A stretch of DNA of 52,690 nucleotides from Actinomycetes bacterium. GTDB taxonomy: Bacteria; Actinomycetota; Acidimicrobiia; Acidimicrobiales; Bog-793. Numbering within the stretch: position 1 is the stretch's first letter; every line of letters starts with the position of its first letter. The notes below the pieces were generated by a model. The model had not been told where the DNA came from. It saw nothing but the letters and a program-made list of their open reading frames with translations, and made no database searches. The stretch lies in assembly GCA_021829645.1 (NCBI GenBank), contig JAKBPI010000013.1, forward strand, positions 1 to 52,690, read 5' to 3'. Below, piece after piece: positions 44,708 to 51,528 of the stretch. The position numbers were made by a program, and so were the translations under genes.

Positions 44708-46381
44708 CTATAGGGATACCCTTTTCCTGCGCCATCCTATGGATACCATGATCAAAGAGATAACCGCCAAGTAAAGCAGGTACATATTGACTCCGGACCA
44801 AGGCTCCCCTGTATGTATCGTCGTGACACTTTTAATGGCCTTTTCAATAGGTTTTTTGTAGACTGCCGTCTTTGCTTTGGTTTTCACTTTTTTCTTTGGG
44901 TGATATTTTTTAGCAACACGCAATTTGGTAATCACCAAGGTTGTGGTGGTTGTAGAAGTCGTGGTGGTCGGGGGTGTGGTGGTCGGGGGTGTGGTGGTGG
45001 TCGTGGTGGTCGGGGGTGTGGTCGAAGTTGTGGTGGTCGTGGTGGTCGAGGTTATGGTGGTGGTCGGGGGTGTGGTAGAAGTCGTGGTGGTCGGGGGTGT
45101 GGTCGAAGTTGTGGTGGTCGTGGTGGTCGAGGTTATGGTGGTGGTCGGGGGTAGCGGAATCGTAATTTTTACTGCGTCAATAACCCCGAATGCTTCCGAG
45201 TTGAGCATTATATACAACATATCAGGATTTTGCCCCACCTCGATGTAACGTGGAGTCAGATAAAAAAGAGGAGAAGCAAAATCAGGGCTGAAGGCAGAAA
45301 TCTCATTTGGACCGGTAATCGGCAGATTCATTATGAAATCTAAAATACCGCTACCGGAAGAATTGGAGTTCAATCCATACAACGCATCTTGAGTAGTCAC
45401 TGCATAGACTTCTTTAGATGTCGGATCATAAGCTAAAACATTTATGTAAACACCGCTATTTTCTATACCTGAACTTGTTATACCCGAGCTGCTGCTTAGG
45501 GTAGGAAGCACTGCTGTTGAACTCACGGTATTGGTAGTGCAATTGAATGCGATAATATCCCCGTTGCCAGCATCGCTTTGAGTAGCCAAATATAAAGTGT
45601 TGCTTGCTGGATCTAGAGCCGCTTGGAAGATACCACTTGAAGTAGTAATGGATTTTTCAGGCTGGTTTGTCAGAGTATTAATCGGGGTAATCTTACCCGA
45701 GTAAGTAATGGCATACAAAGTATTGTTTGCGGAATCAAATATTTCCTTTTCAATACCGATCGATGTCTCAATATTGGATCCTGGCTGGTTTGTCAGAGTA
45801 TTAATCGGGGTAATCACACCCGAGAAACTAGCCGCATACAAAGTATTGTTTGCAGAATCCAGAGCCATCTCCTCGGTATTGCCACTTGAAAGCGTAATGG
45901 GTTTACTTGCTGTTTTAGCCACAGTATTTATCGGATTGATCGTACCATAAAAGGAATTGACATATAAGGTACTGTTCGCCGGATCGAAAAGCCCGCTGTT
46001 GAGACCACTCGACATCTCAATGGGAGTTCCTGGCTCGTTTGTCAGAGTATTAATCGGGGTAACCGTACCGTAGAAAGAAATAGCATATAGTGTGCTGTTG
46101 GTCAGATCAAATGTAAGAGAGTTTAACCCGCTTGAAGCGCTAATAGAAATGCCTGAGGATTTTTTCGCAACATTCCATAGATCCACACTGCTGTTTCCAT
46201 TGATATATAGTTCACCATTGCCCGAGTCATAGAAAGATGCTCCGGGCATTGTAAGCGGTAGTGAATCGTACAACGAGTAGGTTGTGCCGGTTGTAGCTTG
46301 AGCTGAAATCGGAAACAAAATTGATACCAACGGCACCAATAATAAGATCAATGCTGCCAGTGACATCTTTTTATTATTCAT
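44708..46381 (-). CDS. Secreted beta-propeller-like surface protein with Thr/Pro-rich stalk and sorting-signal-like C-terminus
   Basis: From the ATG at 46381 (GGAG site upstream) the product is 557 residues. A signal peptide (MSLAALILLLVPLVSILFPI, cleavage near AQA) leads into at least six repeats of about 43 residues built on NTLYAxxFxGxITPINTLTN, resembling YncE/NHL-type beta-propeller blades. A Thr/Pro low-complexity stalk (about 75 residues of TTTTSTTPP type) follows, then a basic stretch. The end has TIHTGEPWSG, a membrane helix (YLLYLAVISLIMVSIG) and the tail WRRKRVSL. This layout fits wall or membrane anchoring, possibly by the sortase at 15633. The ligand is unknown. Confidence 0.82.
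   Translation of the reverse strand: MNNKKMSLAALILLLVPLVSILFPISAQATTGTTYSLYDSLPLTMPGASFYDSGNGELYINGNSSVDLWNVAKKSSGISISASSGLNSLTFDLTNSTLYAISFYGTVTPINTLTNEPGTPIEMSSGLNSGLFDPANSTLYVNSFYGTINPINTVAKTASKPITLSSGNTEEMALDSANNTLYAASFSGVITPINTLTNQPGSNIETSIGIEKEIFDSANNTLYAITYSGKITPINTLTNQPEKSITTSSGIFQAALDPASNTLYLATQSDAGNGDIIAFNCTTNTVSSTAVLPTLSSSSGITSSGIENSGVYINVLAYDPTSKEVYAVTTQDALYGLNSNSSGSGILDFIMNLPITGPNEISAFSPDFASPLFYLTPRYIEVGQNPDMLYIMLNSEAFGVIDAVKITIPLPPTTTITSTTTTTTTSTTPPTTTTSTTPPTTTITSTTTTTTTSTTPPTTTTTTTPPTTTPPTTTTSTTTTTLVITKLRVAKKYHPKKKVKTKAKTAVYKKPIEKAIKSVTTIHTGEPWSGVNMYLLYLAVISLIMVSIGWRRKRVSL
45001..45152. repeat. 71-bp direct repeat within a G/T-rich low-complexity tract
   Basis: Two identical 71-bp copies (45001-45071 and 45082-45152), made of smaller GTGGTCG-type units, encode the Thr/Pro stalk on the minus strand. 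The G/T-rich tract extends from about 44941. It is a likely site of length variation through slippage. Confidence 0.85.
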
Positions 46382-46681
46382 CGATTTAATCTCCATATAC
46401 CCAACCGCTGATGCCATTTACATCGTTTGGAATTGCCTATTTCATTTCATACTACTTTGGTATATTTTATGAGAATAAATCATATACCATGGAAAGCTTA
46501 AATCGCAGATAAAGCATTTAAGTTTTAGCAATTCTCCCTGTAGGATCACATAAAAAGATATGGGCAGCCATGAAATACGCTTAAGTATTGTTTCAAAAAA
46601 AGCATTAGTTTCCTTTATTAATTGAATTTTCAACTCTTCCGTTAACAAAAATTGCGCTTTCCCATGTAGAGTAGAAAGTAT

Positions 46682-47030
46682 GGGGGTGATAGGTATCGAC
46701 TCTGAATATCAAGATAGTGGAAGCGAGTCGTGGTCCCGGAGCCACGTTAAAGAGCCGGAAAATAAAATAAACGCCGAGCAACCGCTCGCACTTGCTGCTT
46801 AAATAACCAGCAACGCCCAACCGTTCTCAGTCTTATGGAACGAATTTGGGTGTCATAAAGTAGGACTTACGTTATTTGCCCATGTCGCAAGCAAATAACG
46901 GACACTAAAGCGACTAAAAAGACACTATGGCGTCAAAGGCAAGGCGTCTTTTGAAATTAAACCTTTGACTGCACTCGGAGAATAATTATCAAGATGTCAG
47001 AGGACGCGGGTTCAATTCCCGCCACCTCCA
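46682..47030 (+). ncRNA. ssrA: Transfer-messenger RNA (tmRNA)
   Basis: The 5' acceptor strand GGGGGTG (46682-46688) pairs with CACCTCC (47023-47029), followed by discriminator A. The tRNA-like T-arm is GCGGGTTCAATTCCCGC. The tag frame reads GCC GAG CAA CCG CTC GCA CTT GCT GCT TAA, giving AEQPLALAA, with the universal LAA end. CCA is not encoded. The pseudoknot-rich 3' half (46800-46980) contains paired segments such as TTATTTGC/GCAAATAA. At 349 bases it has normal length. Its partner smpB lies about 2 kb away. Confidence 0.95.
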
Positions 47031-47183
47031 CTACAATGCTGTATAAAATACTTTTCTAAGACTGGTTCTATGTCTATCACCATTTTGAAAAATAACGATA
47101 GGTCGGCTTTTGCATAAATAAAATATAAAAAATACGATTGTGCTGTTTACGTGTGGTACAAATCTAAAAGGGCTACAACGCAT

Positions 47184-47789
47184 ATGAGAAAAATTATTGT
47201 CTTATCATTCATCAGCTTAGACGGAGTCATGCAAGCGCCTGGCAGACCAGAAGAAGATACATCCAACGACTTTATACATGGCGGCTGGGTTGCACCGTAT
47301 TTTACTGCATCAGACAATGAGGCCGGTGAGTTTATGGCTAAACAAATGAGACCTGCAGATCTTCTTTTAGGTAGGAAGACATTTGAAATTTTTGCTAATT
47401 ACTGGCCAAATCATACAGATATGTGGCCAAGTATTCAACATGTAACCAAATATGTAATATCAAATACCATCGAGGAAAATAAGACAGATTGGCACAACGT
47501 TATTTTTCTCAAGAATATAGATGATATCAAAAAGCTCAAAAATTCAGATGGTTCTGACTTGCAGGTTCATGGGAGCGGCCAACTAATACAAGCTTTACTC
47601 CAAAATGACCTAGTTGATGAACTATGGCTCAAAACATTTCCCGTTATCCTCGGTCAAGGAAAAAAACTGTTTGATAGTAGCACCATCGCCGCAGCTTTTA
47701 CGCTAACCAATAGTCTGATCACAACAAATGGAGTAATTTTTGCCAACTATATGCGAGCCGGAGATGTTGCTACTGGTGTTATCGGATAA
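47184..47789 (+). CDS. Dihydrofolate reductase-like / RibD C-terminal domain protein
   Basis: The 201-residue protein belongs to the DHFR-fold RibD C-terminal group: IIVLSFISLDGVMQAPG at the start, ADLLLGRKTFEIFANYW in the middle, and VHGSGQLIQALLQNDLVDEL then FPVILGQGKKLFD near the end. These small proteins are common, NADPH-binding by fold, and of unknown substrate. I choose the ATG at 47184, which begins the conserved core, over a GTG 33 bases upstream. The following gap (47790-48029) has no gene. Confidence 0.88.
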   Translation: MRKIIVLSFISLDGVMQAPGRPEEDTSNDFIHGGWVAPYFTASDNEAGEFMAKQMRPADLLLGRKTFEIFANYWPNHTDMWPSIQHVTKYVISNTIEENKTDWHNVIFLKNIDDIKKLKNSDGSDLQVHGSGQLIQALLQNDLVDELWLKTFPVILGQGKKLFDSSTIAAAFTLTNSLITTNGVIFANYMRAGDVATGVIG

Positions 47790-48029
47790 TGATCATACTA
47801 CAATGAAGAATTCCTCTAGGCCTTTACAGCCGGCGAGGACACTAACTGAGATTTACTGATTTGAATACCAAATTCTTTGATAAATATTATCTCTTACCAC
47901 CTAAAATCCGCTATCTGGATTTGTGTCGACCCCGCAATCTTTGTCTAGAAGCTAGCGCGCAATAATCTTGTTGATGCTGTCCCAACCAATTGGATCCTTC
48001 TATAATCTTCGCTCGGCGTATATTGCATC

Positions 48030-48893
48030 TTAGTATCCTAGCTTAAAGCTATTAAAGAAATATTGATAGTTAGGTGCCTGGGTTTTCCCTTGGTTTGAAG
48101 CATATATGCCGTAAATAGTATGATTGGCTATAATTATCCTATTATCTTGATAAACGTAGTGACCTGATAATACGCCGGTCATCGCGTAATCAATTGCCGG
48201 CCACCCGTCAACAGTTATATTTCTCGAATAACTAAGATTTCCATCTTTTAGCTTACTAAGCTGCTGTTGGAGTCCAAGATTTAGCACCAACGTTGCCTCA
48301 TTAGGCGAAAGACTGAATAAATTTGGGTAATGAGCATATACCACAGAGTAAGCCGTATGTGCATTTTGTGATACGAATTCATGAAGAGTGTAAGACATGC
48401 CTTGCGCAGTGACTTTATCAACCTGGGCACCTACTTGGGGAGTAGTTGGAAACATTAAAGTAAAATTGCCTGTCTGATTGCTGAAAGATACCCAGCCTGT
48501 TGGAATACCATTGCTTGAAGTTGCAGTTTGAAAAGACTTTTGGTTATCATTAATCTGTGTTATCCCAACAGCTATCATCCCAGCAGATATTACTATAATA
48601 ATAATTAATATCTTGACCAAGCGTGCTGGACTAAAAGATCTGGCTAGGTACATAGCAGTTTGAATGCCAGTTGTGGTAGTATCAGTCGCTTGACTGTAGT
48701 AGGTGGATTCCCATCGAAAATTATCATCGGGATGATCAGTAACATTTGACTGAACGGTTTGCGAAGTGTATTGCTCCATGGATTCAGGCATTGCTGGCAT
48801 CACGGGACCAAGATTATATTGATTGATAAAGTCTTCAAAACTTGATATGTCTCTATAGCTACTCTCTGAATCAGATGTGTTTTCTGGATACAT
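48030..48893 (-). CDS. Hypothetical single-pass membrane protein
   Basis: The 287-residue protein has a polar, acidic N-terminal segment of about 90 residues, one membrane helix (about 92-113: VKILIIIIVISAGMIAVGI) and an outward domain of about 165 residues. That domain begins WVSFSNQTGNFTLMFPTTPQ, a pattern seen in many actinobacterial extracellular domains, where a W-xxF-xS-xxGxFsvxFP start is followed by a Y-SVVY strand, and ends FFNSFKLGY. The function is unknown. It has its own promoter region and no obvious operon partner. Confidence 0.78.
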   Translation of the reverse strand: MYPENTSDSESSYRDISSFEDFINQYNLGPVMPAMPESMEQYTSQTVQSNVTDHPDDNFRWESTYYSQATDTTTTGIQTAMYLARSFSPARLVKILIIIIVISAGMIAVGITQINDNQKSFQTATSSNGIPTGWVSFSNQTGNFTLMFPTTPQVGAQVDKVTAQGMSYTLHEFVSQNAHTAYSVVYAHYPNLFSLSPNEATLVLNLGLQQQLSKLKDGNLSYSRNITVDGWPAIDYAMTGVLSGHYVYQDNRIIIANHTIYGIYASNQGKTQAPNYQYFFNSFKLGY

Positions 48894-49337
48894 AGGATCT
48901 CACGATAGAAATATTTTTATTATAAGGCAACAATTAAATTAATTTTGCGTCTTTGTATATCGGCTAGACACATTTAAAACTGCGTATAGCATAATAAATA
49001 GTGTCCTAGCAGCAGAAAGAGGACTGTCTTTCGTATTCCAAGCACGCCATAGACAACCAATCTCATTCTTGCCTTAGATTGGCAACCAAAAACGACAAAG
49101 CCATTTAAATTCTAATAGGCAGATATAGACACCGCACAGTTCTCCTACTCCTAAACACAATTTAGAAACCGGAGATAAAATACCTTCATGCGATAGCATT
49201 CTATGACTACTACTGTAGTAATATCATGAATAAATTATATTTTCCGTTTGCAATTTTCCCATCCTTTATAAGATTTCATATTTGGCGTTTTATCTTCTCA
49301 TATTCAAAAACAACTAATGTCTAATGCGGAGGTATAA
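48894..49337. other. Intergenic stretch, including copied fabH leader
   Basis: This 444-base stretch has no gene that I can support. Its last 50 bases or so (from about 49290) resemble the leader of the intact fabH, sharing the sequence ACTAATGTCTA and the GGAGGTATAA ribosome binding site. The rest is AT-rich without recognised motifs. Confidence 0.6.
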
Positions 49338-49435
49338 ATGGGTGCACGAATAACCTGTTGGGGATATAAGTTGCCATAAAAAGTTATCGCCAATGATGAT
49401 CTGGCTCAAAAAATGGACACAGCGACTCATGGATA
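49338..49435 (+). pseudogene. fabH 5'-end duplicate (pseudogene)
   Basis: The first 32 codons copy the start of the intact fabH at 50614: M-G-A-R-I-T-C-W-G-Y-K-L-P, then a TAA stop, then KVIANDDLAQKMDT, against MGAQITGWGYKLPEKVITND in the intact gene. Even the leader with the GGAGGTATAA ribosome binding site is shared. One base has been lost relative to the intact copy near codon 29, and similarity ends abruptly near 49433. It cannot make a functional enzyme. Confidence 0.88.
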
Positions 49436-49729
49436 ATCGATGCCGCTGCTGACCTCGTTGGCACTTAAACCGTGTATGCGGCGCTGGAACTCGGTGTCGA
49501 CCCCAAAAGAATTGCCACAATTGCCGCAGGTCCGAATCCTCCAGGCGGAGCGACTCCCACTGGCGGTGGCAATGCTCCCAAAACTTCGTTCAGTCATATC
49601 ATTGAAGCCATTGTCACAGGGAAACTAAGAGTTCGCATAGCAGCCAGATTTCCCATGGAAAAAATCAGGGAAGCCGTAGCTATGCAACGAGATGGACACG
49701 TACACGGAAAAATTGCCATTGAACTCTAA
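49436..49729 (+). pseudogene. Zinc/quinone-type alcohol dehydrogenase (MDR) C-terminal fragment
   Basis: The frame reads DAADLVGT, stop, TVYAALELGVDPKRIATIAA, followed after a short Gly/Pro-rich stretch by GKLRVRIAARFPMEKIREAV and MQRDGHVHGKIAIEL. This is the C-terminal signature of medium-chain dehydrogenases (fPme-ireAv-xqxxGHvxGKiaIel). The cofactor-binding core and catalytic domain are missing. It is joined directly to the fabH fragment, forming a chimeric relic. Confidence 0.82.
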
Positions 49730-49801
49730 ATACTCTGCGTGAAACAACTTGATAGATGGTCTTTCTATAAACTACTCTTTTAGCATCGTAAATCAGATCT
49801 A

Positions 49802-50458
49802 ATGATAGAAGAGAGGATGGCTGTCATGTCAGGTGTAACACGCTCTTTATTTCATGTCGCCATAAAAGGGTTTCTCGAGACCGTAGACAGTTTAGAACAG
49901 GATCAAATGACTCTTATGGCGCTTGGAAACTTTAGTGTACGAGATCTCTTGGGACATACCAGTCGTGCCCTATCCACGATCGAAGATTACATCGTCCCCT
50001 CTATAATCTCAGTATCACAGATGACGGCCGTTTCCTACTTTACACACGTCTGGAAACCACTTGGAAGTAAAGAAAGAATGCTCCGTGATCAAAATATCGA
50101 AGAACGCGCCCACAGCACAGCTTTGAACTTTTCGGAAGACATGAAAGAAGCATTGCATAACTTGGCTCTACGTGTGGAAAACATTGTAAAAAATGCCAAT
50201 GACGATACAGCAGTCAATACTGCGGCGGGAGAAATGAAGCTAATAGAATACCTCCCAACACGTACATTTGAACTCAGCGTACACACTTTAGATCTGGCAC
50301 GTGCCACCGGAAAGCCCATTCCTGTCTGTCTGAAACCTGCCATAGAGGCAAGCCTGATGCTGGCCTCTAGCTTGGTAATTCAAAACAACGAAGCCTCAGA
50401 GGTACTGCTTGCCCTATGCGGGCGTGATACTCTTCCGACAGGCTATAGTATCGTTTGA
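49802..50458 (+). CDS. Maleylpyruvate isomerase-family (mycothiol-dependent, DinB-like) protein
   Basis: The 218-residue protein resembles the actinobacterial mycothiol-dependent maleylpyruvate isomerase group. Its four-helix DinB-like N-terminal domain includes FSVRDLLGHTSRALSTIEDY (conserved His), and a later segment has PTRTFELSVHTLDLARATGK with the second conserved His and Asp. These residues bind a divalent metal in the family. Internal ATGs at 49817 and 49826 are possible starts; the latter has a GAGAGGA site. Mycothiol dependence is inferred from the family. It lies between the chimeric relic and fabH. Confidence 0.8.
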   Translation: MIEERMAVMSGVTRSLFHVAIKGFLETVDSLEQDQMTLMALGNFSVRDLLGHTSRALSTIEDYIVPSIISVSQMTAVSYFTHVWKPLGSKERMLRDQNIEERAHSTALNFSEDMKEALHNLALRVENIVKNANDDTAVNTAAGEMKLIEYLPTRTFELSVHTLDLARATGKPIPVCLKPAIEASLMLASSLVIQNNEASEVLLALCGRDTLPTGYSIV

Positions 50459-50613
50459 GAGTGCTAAAGTTGCTCATGTATGCGATTTCTCACATTGATC
50501 CTATGTCACATCAAACAAAATCCACAAAGTTAGGTACCTATTATCCCTGAGGTTTTGTCTTTTTACATCTTCGGATATTTATAAAACGACTAATGTCTAG
50601 TAAGGAGGTATAA

Positions 50614-51528
50614 ATGGGTGCACAAATAACTGGTTGGGGATATAAATTACCGGAAAAAGTTATCACCAATGATGATTTGGCCAAGCAAATGGATACAAGT
50701 GATACATGGATCAGGGAGCGAACCGGAATTGCCAAAAGGCACATCGGGGGTACGACTTCCGAACTGGCCATAGAAGCAGGTAAAGCAGCCCTTGCCAAAT
50801 CAGGTACACCCGCTGAAGATATAGGACTTGTTATACTGGCGACAGCCAGTCCGGATCGCCTGATGCCCGCCACCTCAGCCAAAGTCCACGAGCGTCTCGG
50901 TATAAAAGGTGGTGCTTTCGATTGCAATGCCGCATGTGCCGGTTTTATATATGCACTCTTGAGCGCCTATAGTATTGCTGATAAATTCGCTACCAAAGTA
51001 CTTCTTATTGGCTCCGATACCCTGTCACGCTTTATCGACACCGAAGACCGACAAACAGCCGTCTTATTCGGAGACGGGGCCGGAGCTCTTGTTATCGAGC
51101 CCGACGCCAAAGAACTGATACTCGGTTTTGAAGCCGGCACAAACGGAAGCGGTGACAACCTCTTGCATATCGACCATGGTGACAAACTCAAAATGAATGG
51201 TAAAGAGGTTTTCAAACAGGCAGTCAGGAATGACTCTGAGTCCATAAAATTGCTTTTTCAAAAAACCTCTGTTTCCCCGAAAGATATCAAATTATTTGTT
51301 CCGCACCAGGCTAATATACGCATTATCGAAGCGGTAACCTCCAGAATCGATATACCTATGGAAAATACCATGGTAACCATATCTGAGACCGGAAACACCA
51401 CCGCTGCTTCCATTCCTCTTGCTTTGGCCCAGGCTGCCGATGCTGGCAGACTGACTAGGGGGGATTTAGTCCTCTTATCTGGGTTCGGCGCCGGAATGAC
51501 TTGGGCCAGCGTTATATTACGATGGTAA
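50614..51528 (+). CDS. fabH: 3-oxoacyl-ACP synthase III (FabH)
   Basis: The 304-residue condensing enzyme starts fatty-acid synthesis by joining acetyl-CoA (or a branched acyl-CoA) to malonyl-ACP. The Cys-His-Asn triad is visible: C108 in DCNAACAGFIYA, H231 in FVPHQANIRIIEA and N261 in SETGNTTAASIPLA. GFGAGMTWASVIL closes the fold. A strong AAGGAGGT ribosome binding site precedes the ATG. It lies 16 bases upstream of fabG. It is slightly shorter than the usual 315-330 residues. Confidence 0.95.
   Translation: MGAQITGWGYKLPEKVITNDDLAKQMDTSDTWIRERTGIAKRHIGGTTSELAIEAGKAALAKSGTPAEDIGLVILATASPDRLMPATSAKVHERLGIKGGAFDCNAACAGFIYALLSAYSIADKFATKVLLIGSDTLSRFIDTEDRQTAVLFGDGAGALVIEPDAKELILGFEAGTNGSGDNLLHIDHGDKLKMNGKEVFKQAVRNDSESIKLLFQKTSVSPKDIKLFVPHQANIRIIEAVTSRIDIPMENTMVTISETGNTTAASIPLALAQAADAGRLTRGDLVLLSGFGAGMTWASVILRW

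Follow-up and report, generated by a model that had tools for sequence, protein, structure and literature searches.

The window, the 52,690-nucleotide stretch of actinomycete DNA analysed here, contains an intact fabH gene and, upstream of it, a second copy of the fabH start joined to the 3' end of an MDR dehydrogenase gene. The features of the locus are given below, where G001 denotes a congener, the actinomycete MAG WH2.bin4.

49274..49337, plus strand: copied fabH leader with ribosome-binding site GGAGG, aligning to the G001 fabH leader from 49274 and to the resident leader from about 49281
49338..49435, plus strand: first 33 codons of fabH as a fragment, carrying TAA as codon 14, the loss of one base around codon 28, and the changes Gly7Cys and Thr18Ala at near-invariant sites
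49433..49436, plus strand: join of fabH codon 33 to MDR codon 223 (G001 numbering), placed from the aligned parents
49436..49729, plus strand: 3' end of the MDR dehydrogenase gene, residues 223-319 of the G001 orthologue, PF13602, with TAA at 49466-49468
49802..50458, plus strand: intact isomerase-like gene, mycothiol maleylpyruvate isomerase N-terminal domain, PF11716
50575..51528, plus strand: resident fabH with its leader, ATG at 50614, 304 aa, PF08541/PF08545
51545..52321, plus strand: fabG-like gene (short-chain 3-oxoacyl-ACP reductase type), PF13561 with E = 3.8e-61, the end of the conserved block

The leader and the first 32-33 codons of fabH are repeated at 49281-49435 with 81-84% DNA identity. 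Without gaps, positions 49307-49421 match 50583-50697 at 84% over 115 nt, with a spacing of 1276; the gapped local alignment of 49281-49434 with 50554-50711 scores 164, and 300 shuffles reach at most 30. The similarity thus extends far beyond the ribosome-binding site and a few codons, and upholds the sequence-only reading that the leader, ribosome-binding site and first 32 codons of fabH are present twice. The fragment is the sole other match to the fabH start in the 2.1-Mb assembly (81%, E = 4.9e-34). The fabH similarity can be followed as far as codons TGG-ATN at 49430-49435 (Trp32-Ile33). How far the repeat reaches to the left cannot be told, since the intact fabH genes of both species are also unalignable further upstream; for the same reason, it is uninformative that fabH intergenic regions show no homology to the DNA ahead of the fragment.

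The leader includes a conserved ATGTCT...GGAGGTA stretch, found at 50593-50613 and at 49317-49337. In G001 it reads on into fabH without a stop and in the same frame (MSNAEVQ-MGAR). Both leader copies of the window run into TAA just before the fabH ATG, which leaves a six-codon upstream reading frame containing the ribosome-binding site.

Beyond the fabH fragment, the sequence matches PF13602 (ADH_zinc_N_2; E = 9e-08). This MDR tail, the last 97 codons of the gene, has 71% amino acid identity to residues 223-319 of the intact 319-aa MDR dehydrogenase of G001. If the missing base is counted in, the join keeps the reading frame, and the two parents appear to overlap there by two bases (CA). Each half carries a nonsense codon: TAA at 49377-49379, at the position of fabH Glu14, and TAA at 49466-49468 in the MDR tail. 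One base has been lost near fabH codon 28, and both parent genes are truncated. Of about 112 loci, 108 have Gly at FabH residue 7 and 106 have Thr at residue 18; the fragment encodes Cys and Ala at these sites.

The locus therefore bears both marks of a pseudogene, namely homology to functional genes (81-84% in DNA for the fabH part, 71% in amino acids for the MDR part) and disabling changes (two TAA codons, the one-base loss and the truncated parents). From its sequence, 49281-49729 is a chimeric dead gene that is predicted to yield no enzyme. The repeat, the PF13602 match and the alignment to the G001 MDR gene all bear out the earlier description of a chimeric pseudogene made of a fabH start and an MDR tail. 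Its account of the damage was right about the one-base loss and counted one nonsense codon where there are two.

A search of relatives for an MDR gene upstream of fabH found an intact one in G001, where the order is MDR (319 aa), isomerase-like gene, fabH, fabG. The FabH product of the window is 91% identical to that of G001, the isomerase-like gene has a 55% identical orthologue at the same place, and the fabG-like gene occupies the same position. The isomerase-like gene starts 72 nt after the fragment and matches PF11716 at E = 0.0002 with 22.5 bits, just under the cut-off of 24.2. The left flank (smpB, a repeat-rich protein and tmRNA) is also common to both genomes. In a second congener, G002, MDR lies near a contig end, fabH is cut by the start of another contig so that its start is missing from the assembly, and the isomerase homologue is at a different place. 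The gene-order comparison covers these two congeners, of which G001 alone is informative, so that the order is not fully polarised. Because the MDR tail itself is present in the window, the ancestor of the window had MDR at this place, and the G001 order thus indicates that both the MDR tail and the isomerase-like gene still stand where they did ancestrally. The proposal that the intervening gene was acquired together with a copied promoter does not survive this comparison: MDR, the isomerase-like gene and fabH stand in the same order in G001, which practically rules out such an acquisition.

The tract from the tmRNA gene to the chimera (46682-49273) differs wholly in content between the window and G001. 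The window has a RibD_C-domain gene at 47151-47789 and an unknown protein at 48030-48893 (minus strand); G001 has epimerase and TetR genes beside MDR, both missing from the window. The protein at 48030-48893 is predicted to have 287 aa and one hydrophobic stretch, with no Pfam match and no homologue in the 19 relatives searched. The tmRNA gene itself (46682-47031, tag AEQPLALAA) is 90.6% identical to that of G001, and no repeat of its 3' end was found as a sign of an integrated element. A repeat protein with a long Thr/Pro-rich stretch (44708-46417, minus strand) adjoins smpB and tmRNA, and its repeats vary in G001 too.

The age of the fabH fragment can be estimated from a three-way comparison over 49307-49434, in which the fragment sides with G001 against the resident fabH at 12 sites, with the resident fabH against G001 at 9, and stands alone at 8. 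Because of the 12 against 9 informative sites, the fragment seems to have left the resident lineage near the species split. An exact binomial limit places the separation no later than 32% along the branch that follows the split (54% with adjacent sites merged), and for a date 80% along that branch P = 1e-7 (1e-4 with merged sites), these being values from 32 codons with synonymous sites near saturation, simple models and one informative congener. At all three informative amino acid sites that separate its own FabH from that of G001 (4, 24 and 25), the fragment carries the G001 residue. A failed transfer is recognised by a copy closest to the gene of another lineage; here the relationship is a three-way star, with 12 sites shared with G001 and 9 with its own fabH. 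A closer source was sought among 35 genomes of the family, its own included, and no donor was found, only G001.

Relative to the resident fabH, the fragment has 10 changes at 17 synonymous and 6 at 73 nonsynonymous sites, and a model of a copy without any period of constraint fits significantly worse (2dlnL = 9.6). The copy-specific changes (4 synonymous and 3-4 nonsynonymous) do not reject neutrality alone (P 0.04-0.14); the dating therefore rests on the three-way sites and on the MDR tail.

The MDR tail has a dN/dS (omega) of 0.11 against G001, to be compared with working-gene values of 0.05 for fabG, 0.18 for the isomerase-like gene and 0.175 for MDR between G001 and G002. Its lineage-specific amino acid changes, six against five with G002 as outgroup, show no excess, and the unconstrained fraction of the branch is estimated at 0, with a 95% limit of 0.12-0.20. 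Because the tail shows no relaxed constraint, MDR was apparently whole until recently. On these sequence comparisons the join appears young and the fabH fragment old, the two halves of the chimera differing in age. The many substitutions had been taken as the sign of an old event; in each half most of them are synonymous, and the greater part therefore precedes the join. The interpretation first put forward was thus correct in kind and wrong in timing.

The locus is probably the remnant of a second, diverged fabH that lay upstream of MDR and was fused to it by a later deletion. The lineage of the window would have carried this second fabH, either an old paralogue or a gene from a relative, which had diverged from the resident gene about as far as the species split. 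It would once have been whole, and both it and MDR would have been under selection until late. A deletion by illegitimate recombination would then have removed the rest of the second fabH together with MDR codons 1-222, joining codon 33 to codon 223. The joined product would have decayed afterwards, gaining two nonsense codons, a shift of frame and amino acid replacements at conserved sites. No whole second fabH was found beside MDR in the relatives compared. MDR residues 1-222 and the remainder of the second fabH are absent from the assembly, which holds only distant homologues (33-36% identity) and is a draft of 55 contigs, 94% complete, with gaps in which the lost pieces could sit.

Illegitimate recombination in bacteria makes deletion or insertion junctions. 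The junction in the window resembles these in that unrelated coding sequences are joined with at most about two shared bases. It differs in that the event is deduced here from a locus with no known donor or intact predecessor, and in that the junction has since decayed by at least one base.

A one-step history would be a partial tandem duplication of a segment with MDR codon 223 at one end and fabH codon 33 at the other, the isomerase-like gene included, placed head to tail, with the upstream MDR and the first isomerase copy deleted later. Compared with G001, the segments run fabH start, MDR tail, isomerase-like gene, fabH, as is usual at a head-to-tail junction. However, this history needs both fragments to have been unselected at once, and the fabH fragment is old whereas the MDR tail lost its constraint recently; the distance between copy and parent does not fit the age of the junction. 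The first isomerase or MDR copy has also left no trace upstream, where nothing above chance was found between 46400 and 49340. Such a duplication is possible but unlikely. The partial tandem duplication with a deletion suggested by the sequence-only reading thus holds for the segment order and fails as a single event, because the two pieces have different ages.

The two-step deletion history is compatible with a further suggestion, that the copied leader is a working promoter which now drives the isomerase-like gene, left without the MDR start upstream of it. The leader, ribosome-binding site and spacing are well conserved, and the isomerase-like gene is intact and lies close behind the fragment. 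Translation of the fragment, however, would end at codon 14, which would tend to hinder downstream expression. A promoter scan, of a type that is weak in this group, gave no promoter-like match in the leader and a regional count not above that of shuffles. Present promoter activity of this kind is unlikely. If true, promoter capture would tie the isomerase-like gene to the control of fatty-acid synthesis. It is quite unlikely that the locus records either the trace of a once-selected fusion gene or promoter capture by the extra fabH leader over the isomerase-like gene.

An assembly artefact, with a false junction near 49433 between pieces that belong to two different strains or species of the metagenome, would be in keeping with a draft genome of 55 contigs and with a fabH fragment that resembles the version of another species. 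It is very unlikely: disabling changes flank the join on both sides, which is unexpected if two healthy genes were joined; the MDR tail is in its ancestral place; and a repeat identity of 81-84% should be too low to confuse an assembler. Least probable is the reading that residues 1-33 of FabH and 223-319 of MDR formed a long-lived fusion protein that was itself selected and died recently. The in-frame join and the mostly synonymous change in both halves would agree with it. However, an in-frame join has a one-in-three chance, and a product that lacks the active site of FabH, the GroES-like domain of MDR and most of the Rossmann fold has no plausible activity.

The chimera is a case of ordinary bacterial gene decay and belongs to an already known kind of pseudogene. 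Duplication and failed horizontal transfer are sources of prokaryotic pseudogenes (Genome Biol. 2004, PMC522871). Like the pseudogenes described there, the fragment is a truncated copy with stops and a frameshift that adjoins an intact homologue and resembles the gene of a related species. Unlike them, it has been joined to a resident gene's tail, and transfer is only one option for its origin.

The wider importance of the locus is small. It offers a clear case of a chimeric dead gene with halves of different age, and shows that a date read from the number of substitutions in a fragment can be wrong for the breakage of the gene. For this genus, it marks the tract from tmRNA to fabH as a site of gene turnover.
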